20,157 nt of DNA from a virus. Shown piece after piece: positions 4,102-9,535 of the stretch; position 1 is the stretch's first letter; every line of letters starts with the position of its first letter. Under the pieces are notes generated by a model that was not told the DNA's origin, did not search any database, and saw nothing but the letters and a program-made list of their open reading frames with translations. The stretch spans positions 1-20,157 of the IMG/VR virus record IMGVR_UViG_3300030380_004389; one strand, given 5' to 3'. Position numbers and translations under genes: made by a program.

Positions 4102-4338
4102 ATGACGAATCGCCCAAGACAAATTGGAGAATGTTATACAAATTTTGGTCTTAAACACACTTCCAAAAGCCAAAACACAATCCCTGACGATGTACGTTTT
4201 TTTAGATACGTTTGTCTAACACCTAAAGAAAAATCAAACCTACCTACTAATTGCTCATTCATTGGTGGAACAATTGCACATGAAGTAGTGCAAATGGCTT
4301 TATGCGATGGAGTTAAACTTGGAGATATTTTAAAATGA
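4102..4338 (+). CDS. N-terminal half of a split RecB/Cas4-like PD-(D/E)XK exonuclease
   Basis: The 78-residue frame starts MTNRPRQIGECYTNFG at 4102; an upstream TTG at 4066 is rejected because it is the -35 element. FFRYVCLTPKEKSNLP followed by IGGTIAHEVVQMAL matches the N-terminal helical region of RecB/Cas4-type nucleases, including the characteristic G-x(2,3)-H with His in TIAHE. The rest of that nuclease, with its D-x-K core, is encoded in the next frame, which begins at 4335 inside this gene's last codons. The zero frame ends ATT TTA AAA TGA, so TTTAAAA (4329-4335) is a canonical -1 slippery heptamer that would fuse this half to the next. Either two separate subunits or a frameshifted fusion is made. 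Confidence 0.75.
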   Translation: MTNRPRQIGECYTNFGLKHTSKSQNTIPDDVRFFRYVCLTPKEKSNLPTNCSFIGGTIAHEVVQMALCDGVKLGDILK

Positions 4339-4979
4339 TAAAAGAAATTCAACATAAAATAGATAATTACAATCCAATTAATGAAAAAGATAAAATAAAA
4401 TTTGAGCATATTATCAAAAATATGGAGTCATTATCAAGAAATCATTTAACAAATATTGCATCATTACCAAATCAAAAATGGGAAAAAGAGAAAGAGTACA
4501 CACATTGGGATCAAAGAATTAAAACTTATTTTTTAGCTTATGTAGATTTAATTGGTGAAACTCATTTTGGAGATATTAAAAATGTTTTTGGAACTTTAGT
4601 AAAAACTAAAAGTGGATATTCTTATACTAAAAAAAAATGCCCTAAAGTACCTTTTCATAGTGATTGTTTGCAAATTGCTTTGTACTCAAAACTATTACCA
4701 AAACATATCCCATTTTTAACTTATGCTAGTGATAGCGACCATGTAATTTTTACGCCTGACAATTGCATAGAATTAAGAAAAGAAAATTTAGAAAAATATT
4801 ATGATGAATTAGTTTTATATCAAATGTGTTGGGAAAAAAAATTAGAACTAGCAAATGGCGATATAAAAACTTTAGCTTTACTTTGTAAGCCTGACTTTAG
4901 CGAAATAAGAAAAAATGGTTTTTGGTGGAATGGAATTGAACCTAATTTAATTGAAAGATTTAGAGGTTATTATGGGTGA
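4335..4979 (+). CDS. Catalytic half of a PD-(D/E)XK (RecB/Cas4-like) exonuclease
   Basis: This 214-residue protein holds the nuclease core: YVDLIGE with Asp in a beta strand (about 72), HFGDIKN with the D-x-K pair (about 79-81), and a downstream helix with HSDCLQIALYSKLL, the Q-containing motif IV/QxxxY of RecB-family exonucleases. The protein would resect 5' ends to yield single strands for the annealing protein encoded downstream. The start overlaps the preceding stop as ATGA, with GGAG at 4321-4324, 10 bases upstream, so independent initiation is plausible. It ends GYYG, overlapping the next gene by 8 nt. The N-terminal helical/His part expected in this family is in the previous frame. Confidence 0.8.
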   Translation: MIKEIQHKIDNYNPINEKDKIKFEHIIKNMESLSRNHLTNIASLPNQKWEKEKEYTHWDQRIKTYFLAYVDLIGETHFGDIKNVFGTLVKTKSGYSYTKKKCPKVPFHSDCLQIALYSKLLPKHIPFLTYASDSDHVIFTPDNCIELRKENLEKYYDELVLYQMCWEKKLELANGDIKTLALLCKPDFSEIRKNGFWWNGIEPNLIERFRGYYG

Positions 4980-5160
4980 TCAAGGAATTATTAAACCATT
5001 AAGAGATAGAGTAAGAGATTTAGAAACTATTAATAATGAACATCAAAAAAAGAATGGCCAATTAAGAGTAGAAATTCAAAACAAAGATAAAATTATTAAA
5101 GATTTAGAAGAACAAATTAAAAACCCAACAAAAAAATTGAGAGAGGTAGGACAACTATGA
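4972..5160 (+). CDS. Small coiled-coil protein
   Basis: Translation from ATG 4972 (AGAGG at 4962-4966 upstream) gives 62 residues beginning MGDQGIIKPLRDRVRDLE. Nearly the whole chain is a heptad-patterned, highly charged helix, with leucines and isoleucines around RVRDLETINNEHQKK and DKIIKDLEEQIK. It overlaps the exonuclease stop by 8 nt and the annealing-protein start as ATGA. It probably dimerises and may bridge the exonuclease and annealing protein, but no family is recognised and this is a guess from position. Confidence 0.75.
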   Translation: MGDQGIIKPLRDRVRDLETINNEHQKKNGQLRVEIQNKDKIIKDLEEQIKNPTKKLREVGQL

Positions 5161-5810
5161 GTAAAGAAAAAACATTGGAAAGTGCAATACAAAATTTTAG
5201 GGATGGAATTAAACAAAGCGACTATGTAAAATTAGGTGCTAAAGGTGAATATTTAACAGTTCCTTATCGTATCAAGTTTGTAAGAGAATATTTTGGAAGT
5301 AGATTACAAATTTTAACATTTAGTAGTGAGTTAGAAAATGGCTCTACAAAATTTAGAGCAAGTGTCTTTTTAGATGGCAAAGAATTAAGTGTTGGTGAGT
5401 CTAAAATGATGGTCAATAGAGATAAAGAATTTGAAAAAGCACAAACAGTCAGTATTGGTAGAGCATTATCTATTCTTGGATTTATGGGTAATGAGATTGC
5501 AACAGCAGAAGAAATTGAGGATTTTGTAAAAGGCAAAGAAACAAAACCTATTGCTAAACCTAATGGTAAAGAAATTACAAAAAAATTTAATGTTGAAGAA
5601 TTTGCTAGTGAATGGATTAGTAAATTAGAACAACAAGCAAAGCTATCAACAAGCGTTAATAAATTTGAACAAGGTATTCAAAGTTTATCTAAAGAATACA
5701 CAAACGAATTAGAACAACTTTATCTTGATCCAATTCAAGACGTTAAGGTTGCTAATAAATACAACAAACTAAAAACTACAATACAAGGAAGAAAACCTAA
5801 TGGACAATAA
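5157..5810 (+). CDS. Rad52/Sak-like single-strand annealing protein (putative recombinase)
   Basis: This 217-residue protein has the pattern of a widespread phage annealing-protein-like family: YLTVPYRIKFVREYFG (about 32-47), I-L-T-F with a strand carrying FRASVFLDGKELSVGESKM, then the conserved block EKAQTVSIGRALSILGFMGN (about 93-112), followed by EIATAEEIEDF. The same E-x-A-x-T-x-x-I-G-R-A-L-x-x-x-G pattern occurs in Rad52/Sak-type phage single-strand annealing proteins. The C-terminal half is helical and charged. It sits directly after the exonuclease, the usual SynExo arrangement, and directly before a small SSB-like protein. It would anneal complementary single strands in phage recombination and replication. 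Assignment to a particular SSAP superfamily is uncertain. Confidence 0.75.
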   Translation: MSKEKTLESAIQNFRDGIKQSDYVKLGAKGEYLTVPYRIKFVREYFGSRLQILTFSSELENGSTKFRASVFLDGKELSVGESKMMVNRDKEFEKAQTVSIGRALSILGFMGNEIATAEEIEDFVKGKETKPIAKPNGKEITKKFNVEEFASEWISKLEQQAKLSTSVNKFEQGIQSLSKEYTNELEQLYLDPIQDVKVANKYNKLKTTIQGRKPNGQ

Positions 5811-8368: not shown

Positions 8369-9535
8369 TTATTTCCAATTAAAGTGTTTGTTTTGATAAT
8401 CTACATTTTCAATTTCTTTCTCACTCTTGAGATATAAAGCTATGTAGTTATCTTGCACAAAATCTATTGACTTATCTCCAAGTGCTTTGGCCAAGTCGAT
8501 AGCGTTCTTATATTTAGACGTATAAGCCCAAAAACTAGCTGTGTAATGACGCCAGAAGTACCCTTTTCGCTTAATTGGTAGCGTAAGGTGTAATTTATTT
8601 AAACTCTTGTCTATGCCTCTAATAATGGCTTCTAGGCGTATAGGTGAGTTAGTTTTATCTAAAAATAGATAATTCTGGTCCTTTGGCAAGGTTTTAACAT
8701 ATTTGTTAATTTCATCCCTTAAATCGTTAGAAATAACTAATTGTCTAAAACCATTATCAGTTTTTGGATCACCTATTTTTTTAGTACCACTCTTAACTGA
8801 TTTATTAATATCAATGATTGGTGGTAAATTAGAACTAGCATCAAAGTTTAGCAAATCATCTAGGGTCAAGCATCTAGCCTCACTAGGCCTTAATGCACAC
8901 TCTAAAAGAATTTTGCATATTAATTGAACTTCGTATCTTGGAATATTATGAATTATCTTTTTCATTAAATCCATGTTCCAATAGTCAAAATCAATACGTT
9001 CTGGCTTTGTTCTACTAGTAACAACCATAGTCATCCAATCGGCATCTTTACAAATATTACGCTTTAGCTTTCTATTTGGTGGATCAACTTGGTTTTGAAT
9101 AATAAGTTCTAACGTATTAAATATTTTTCTAATAGTTTTAGCTTTTAATTCATTTGTAAATAATTTGTCAGTTAGGTATTTAACAAAACTATTTAATTCT
9201 TTTTCACCTATTTTTCTAATATCTACATTATTAAAATTTGGTAAAATATGATTTGCATAAAAACTATTATAAGATTTAACATGGCCTATATCTACAATAC
9301 CCTCTCTAATCTTATATTTAAGTCTTTTAATAAAAGAATCGTAAGCTTCGTTTAAAGTTACTTCTTGTGAGTCAAATTTAACAAAGCCTACTTCTTTAAT
9401 TTTTTCTTCAGCTTTTTCTTTACAATCTTTGTAAGTGTTTTTAGTTATAGATTTTGGCTTGGTATCTTCACCAATATATTTCCATCTATATCTTCTTTTA
9501 CCACTAACATAACAAGGTCTTATATTTAGTTCCAT
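8369..9535 (-). CDS. int: Tyrosine site-specific integrase
   Basis: The 388-residue protein has the usual three parts: an N-terminal arm-binding-like region (1-55, with YVSGKRRYRWKY), a SAM-like core-binding domain (about 56-150) and a catalytic domain. Catalytic residues visible are R216 (ALRPSEAR), K258 (DPKTDNGFRQ), R329 (FWRH) and Y364 (QDNYIALY). Box II normally reads H-x-x-R, but here the position three before R329 is Tyr326. The usual LGH reads LGD (D354). It integrates the phage genome at a host attachment site. AAGGAGAGAG (9548-9539) is the ribosome site and a good promoter lies at 9564-9592. It heads a three-gene operon. The attachment site is likely to be in the 9536-9755 gap. Confidence 0.93.
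   Translation of the reverse strand: MELNIRPCYVSGKRRYRWKYIGEDTKPKSITKNTYKDCKEKAEEKIKEVGFVKFDSQEVTLNEAYDSFIKRLKYKIREGIVDIGHVKSYNSFYANHILPNFNNVDIRKIGEKELNSFVKYLTDKLFTNELKAKTIRKIFNTLELIIQNQVDPPNRKLKRNICKDADWMTMVVTSRTKPERIDFDYWNMDLMKKIIHNIPRYEVQLICKILLECALRPSEARCLTLDDLLNFDASSNLPPIIDINKSVKSGTKKIGDPKTDNGFRQLVISNDLRDEINKYVKTLPKDQNYLFLDKTNSPIRLEAIIRGIDKSLNKLHLTLPIKRKGYFWRHYTASFWAYTSKYKNAIDLAKALGDKSIDFVQDNYIALYLKSEKEIENVDYQNKHFNWK

Follow-up and report, generated by a model that had tools for sequence, protein, structure and literature searches.

A phage RecB/Cas4-like nuclease gene split at an ATGA overlap: a probable case of gene fission with translational re-initiation

In several phage enzymes (nrdA of Aeh1, gene 43A/43B of phages 25 and 44RR, T4 gene 60), one ancestral coding region has given rise to two polypeptides, and the split NrdA of Aeh1 and gp43 of phage 25 are reported to be active as two pieces (PMC2988022). 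These known cases carry inserted homing endonucleases or spacers. The nuclease described here, encoded by a marine phage in a window of 20,157 nucleotides (the whole stretch of DNA analysed, taken from a virus record of 22,151 bases), resembles them in that one ancestral coding region appears to yield two polypeptides, but it differs in the enzyme concerned and in the nature of the break: there is no insert, and a small indel creates an ATGA stop/start overlap coupled to a Shine-Dalgarno (SD) core. No earlier report of such a split nuclease was found in the literature searched, which covered a minority of subscription journals.

Modules of the λ Red, RecET and ERF types combine a nuclease and a RAD52-superfamily annealing protein in one operon. 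The window has the same arrangement, although its nuclease is RecB/Cas4-like and split, and the core of its annealing protein has no Pfam match. With the Cas4/RecB-like nucleases ACE1, SSO0001 (which we take to be of the Cas4 family) and AdnAB, the window nuclease shares a predicted fold and the motif order G-x3-H, D, D-x-K, QxxxY, at an identity of only 10 to 12% in fold alignments; it differs from them in having no conserved C-terminal CxxC-type cysteine cluster and a catalytic site spread over two polypeptides. A 'putative nuclease' stands at the same operon place, before the annealing protein (annotated in three of four cases), in the SAR11 phages HTVC203P, HTVC204P, Skadi-1 and Lederberg. 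These nucleases are about 21 to 35% identical to that of the window at the protein level, and each is encoded by one ORF of approximately 300 to 320 aa, whereas the window has two ORFs joined by ATGA. The nearest cultured phages having Candidatus Pelagibacter hosts, the host of the present phage is probably also a SAR11 bacterium, as far as a relationship at only 21 to 35% identity can indicate.

The two ORFs are the first genes of a closely packed operon on the plus strand. The N half (positions 4102 to 4338, ATG at 4102, TGA at 4336 to 4338) encodes 78 aa, comprising the N-terminal helices and the motif-I GGTxxH with His60; it is homologous to residues 1 to 78 of single-ORF relatives. The C half (4335 to 4979, ATG at 4335, TGA at 4977 to 4979) encodes 214 aa and carries the PD-(D/E)XK core, with D71, D80-I-K82 and Q113xxxY117. 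They overlap by the four bases ATGA at 4335 to 4338, a type of junction also present at three other places of the operon (5157, 6326 and 6625), and a GGAG, the SD core of the C half, lies at 4321 to 4324, 10 nt before the ATG. The last zero-frame codons of the N half read ATT TTA AAA TGA, so that positions 4329 to 4335 form a T TTA AAA heptamer in the slippery phase X XXY YYZ, from which a -1 shift would enter ATG ATA of the C half. The original prediction had described this arrangement, in two frames and with the His module separated from the D-x-K module; on re-reading the sequence, all its coordinates proved right.

Taken together, the two products are one RecB/Cas4-like PD-(D/E)XK nuclease, an identity proposed from the outset and with which both the conserved H, D, D-x-K and QxxxY motifs and the predicted fold agree. 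In single-ORF relatives the protein has about 291 residues, among which G56-x3-H60, D148, D157-x-K159 and Q190-x3-Y194 are invariant, and these H, D, D-x-K and QxxxY motifs are kept across the two halves of the split relatives. Judged by motif order, without superposition, H60 is the apparent equivalent of RecB H956, which is catalytic together with D1067 and D1080 (PMC1185551). For the fold we relied on modeling L002, an intact relative, with a result of moderate quality (mean pLDDT 73; the other four models reached 45 to 54). Its best PDB matches in Foldseek were the Argonaute-associated Cas4-family nuclease ACE1 (top match, E 1.7e-4), SSO0001 and AdnAB, and all predicted beta strands fall in the C part. 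In sequence searches with the nuclease, no Pfam family scored above its cut-off, the sequence libraries searched returned sub-threshold matches only, comparison with the sequences of solved structures gave nothing meaningful, and a PHROG labeled 'CRISPR/Cas system associated' matched with E 0.003. Assignment to Cas4 proper was considered and rejected, the only invariant cysteines being C11, C188 and C221, with no C-terminal CxxC-type cluster for a [4Fe-4S] center, and the neighboring genes not being cas genes. We infer an exonuclease activity, and its polarity, for the pair.

The split is found in 20 contigs, the window and 19 others, from many samples. They form three groups: A1 (the window, L001, L009 and L012), A2 (L010, L011, L013 to L017 and L019) and B (L042 to L045, L048, L081, L082 and L149, the last of which is truncated at the 5' end, with the junction preserved). 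Single-ORF relatives spanning the junction, for which the original prediction had suggested looking, were indeed found: they make up the majority of the related viral contigs in which the junction was read, all 30 members checked of a group approximately 44% identical, and the annotated nucleases of the four SAR11 phages. Because all outgroups read are single-ORF, fission is the derived state. No relatives were found in bacterial genomes. A 79-residue viral protein in BFVD (A0A8S0I7X7), 54% identical to the N half, probably represents a further instance of the split form. Within the split subclade of the window, at dS near 1, dN/dS is 0.04 to 0.07 for the N half and 0.08 to 0.14 for the C half; these ratios indicate strong purifying selection on both halves, which have therefore been kept working.

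The reading we consider probable is gene fission followed by termination and re-initiation, with two polypeptides that reassemble into one nuclease. In the lineage of the window, the ancestral single gene would have been broken by a small indel within a variable linker. The ribosome would end the N half at TGA and restart on the overlapping ATG, aided by the GGAG or GAGG just upstream, so that two polypeptides are made in a coupled ratio; the halves would then fold together, the N half contributing the metal-binding His and the C half the D/D-x-K/QxxxY core. Re-initiation had been put forward as a fair alternative to frameshifting, and it gains from the comparison: ATGA is present in all split sequences, and GGAG or GAGG stands 7 to 10 nt upstream of it in all 17 distinct ones, the SD spacing of 10 nt in the window being somewhat long, which counts against re-initiation. 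Short stop/start overlaps are translationally coupled in the cases tested (PMC6728339), and they are over-represented among the subunits of heteromeric complexes (PMC10666635). Among the products initially envisaged (two subunits, a fusion, or both), two polypeptides are thus favored, and a fusion is not supported. Judging from the conserved motifs and from precedent, reassembly of the halves is the most likely outcome. The place of the break would be compatible with it: it falls between the predicted helices H73-78 and H80-87 of the L002 model, where the protein is least conserved and none of the residues that separate Q64 from K95 is invariant. The locus would then be a natural case of a nuclease with its active-site residues spread over two co-translated polypeptides, for which the intact relatives, almost unchanged beyond the junction, provide a ready comparison. 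It would also supply a natural site at which to split a compact phage exonuclease.

The question arises as to how the split came about. Split and unsplit genes differ by small indels that create the ATGA, a gain of 2 nt relative to the closest unsplit relatives, and many unsplit genes (20 of 45 single ORFs) already possess an SD core at the homologous place, in the form of GAGGAA (Glu-Glu) or GGAGAT (Gly-Asp). An AT-rich phage genome may thus easily split a gene, by one small indel near an SD-like stretch coding for Glu or Gly. When the junction columns were left out of the tree, at least three changes between the split and unsplit states were needed, and the hypothesis that the split arose once, in one clade, was rejected (AU test, p = 5e-8), a result that local recombination can also produce. 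The divergence is in fact concentrated at the junction segment (approximately 4270 to 4375), where split and unsplit alleles differ sharply while their flanks are almost identical. Identity between the window and the unsplit L002 is 95 to 100% over the first ~165 nt, about 55% across the junction and 76 to 100% after it, and 39 of their 66 differences lie within one 90-column window. Similarly, the unsplit L018 falls inside group A2, and 16 of its 32 differences from L010 lie within 90 columns. Synonymous divergence is also raised at the junction. This peak, synonymous sites included, points to short recombination tracts bringing in a different junction, and the split rows fail to form one clade probably because the junction segment was swapped between near-identical flanks. 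Exchange of the nuclease junction by short recombination tracts between otherwise near-identical phages is, from the alignments, the likeliest explanation. One could go further and suppose that split and unsplit forms are co-maintained by exchange of a junction cassette, the two-piece enzyme being advantageous, for instance by tying activity to assembly or by evading an inhibitor. We regard this extension as unlikely; if true, fission and fusion would be a selectable switch.

We find it improbable that programmed -1 slippage on the T TTA AAA heptamer yields a fusion nuclease, whether as the sole product or at a fixed ratio to a separate N half. The heptamer is in the correct phase, as originally claimed, and is kept in all four A1 members, and the fusion would have 292 residues compared with 291 in single-ORF relatives. 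However, TTTAAAA is present in only 4 of the 17 distinct split sequences, all of A1, and also in one unsplit gene. Its absence from the 13 others is an outcome that the original prediction had itself named as refuting the frameshift. Nor do the two other groups offer a substitute: in the 13 to 16 nt where a shift could join the frames, no canonical -1 site occurs in A2 (GGAAATTTTAGAATGA or GGAAATCTTAGAATGA) or in B (GGANATATCATGA). The RNA of the 85 nt from 4336, just past the heptamer, folds no better than shuffled sequences (z = 0.15). Stimulation of slippage by the GGAG, another element of the original prediction, encounters a problem of spacing, as an SD sequence must lie 9 to 14 nt upstream of the slip site to stimulate a -1 shift (PMC5009743), whereas the gap here is 4 nt. 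Finally, heptamers of this kind are frequent in DNA as AT-rich as that of the window, as had been anticipated: TTTAAAA occurs 37 times on both strands, including 14 occurrences within genes and in slippery phase, and 5,374 codons contain 88 in-phase XXXYYYZ heptamers. At this frequency, one is therefore expected by chance in a 5 to 7 codon overlap at about 8 to 11% of junctions. The split exceeds chance; the heptamer does not, and we judge it to be incidental in view of its distribution, although a minor share of slippage within A1 could make some fusion. A TTTAAAA at a junction of this kind is accordingly not to be taken for programmed frameshifting.

A re-initiated C half might also be the nuclease alone, the N half having become a separate regulator or DNA-binding subunit. 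The D, D-x-K and QxxxY motifs and all predicted beta strands are in the C half, in keeping with such a division of labor, yet the split lineages conserve the GG motif and His60 in the N half, and the RecB residue equivalent to His60, H956, is catalytic with D1067 and D1080 (PMC1185551); we find this alternative very unlikely. That the gene is a frameshift pseudogene, or the split a sequencing or assembly error, is scarcely credible: the contigs are metagenomic, one small indel separates the two states and near-identical unsplit alleles exist, but 20 contigs from many samples share the split and its ATGA/SD design, dN/dS is mostly below 0.15 in both halves, and all catalytic motifs are kept.

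Gene fission with re-initiation thus remains the preferred reading, and the enzyme it would yield has a candidate partner. The product of 5157 to 5810 is a single-strand annealing protein whose core is predicted to be RAD52/Mgm101-like, on account of fold matches to yeast Mgm101 and human RAD52, and an ERF-family annealing protein occupies the same operon place in the relative L118 and in the SAR11 phage Skadi-1. The predicted fold and the position of ERF in relatives make the nuclease part of a Red-like exonuclease/annealing module; on this modeling evidence, the split nuclease and the annealing protein encoded two genes further downstream are partners in a λ-Red-like operon. BLASTP found no similarity between the annealing proteins of the window and of Skadi-1. 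Between nuclease and annealing protein lies a small coiled-coil-like gene (4972 to 5160), overlapping the C half by 8 nt; a small gene sits in the same position in Skadi-1, with no sequence match to it. Internal stops had suggested that in L049 and L081 the annealing gene is split as well, but only its last codons differ, and the idea was discarded. The tail of the annealing protein (residues 126 to 217) is common to relatives with a different, ERF-family core (L118, 3622 to 4287), suggesting that the core was swapped and the tail kept.

Elsewhere in the window, a tyrosine-type integrase is encoded on the minus strand at 8369 to 9535 (phrog_1, E 1.3e-25), and the phage is therefore probably temperate; no tRNA genes were found near the integrase or in the rest of the window. 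Positions 2225 to 2773 encode a putative MT-A70-type adenine methyltransferase, recognized by eye from its DPPW motif.
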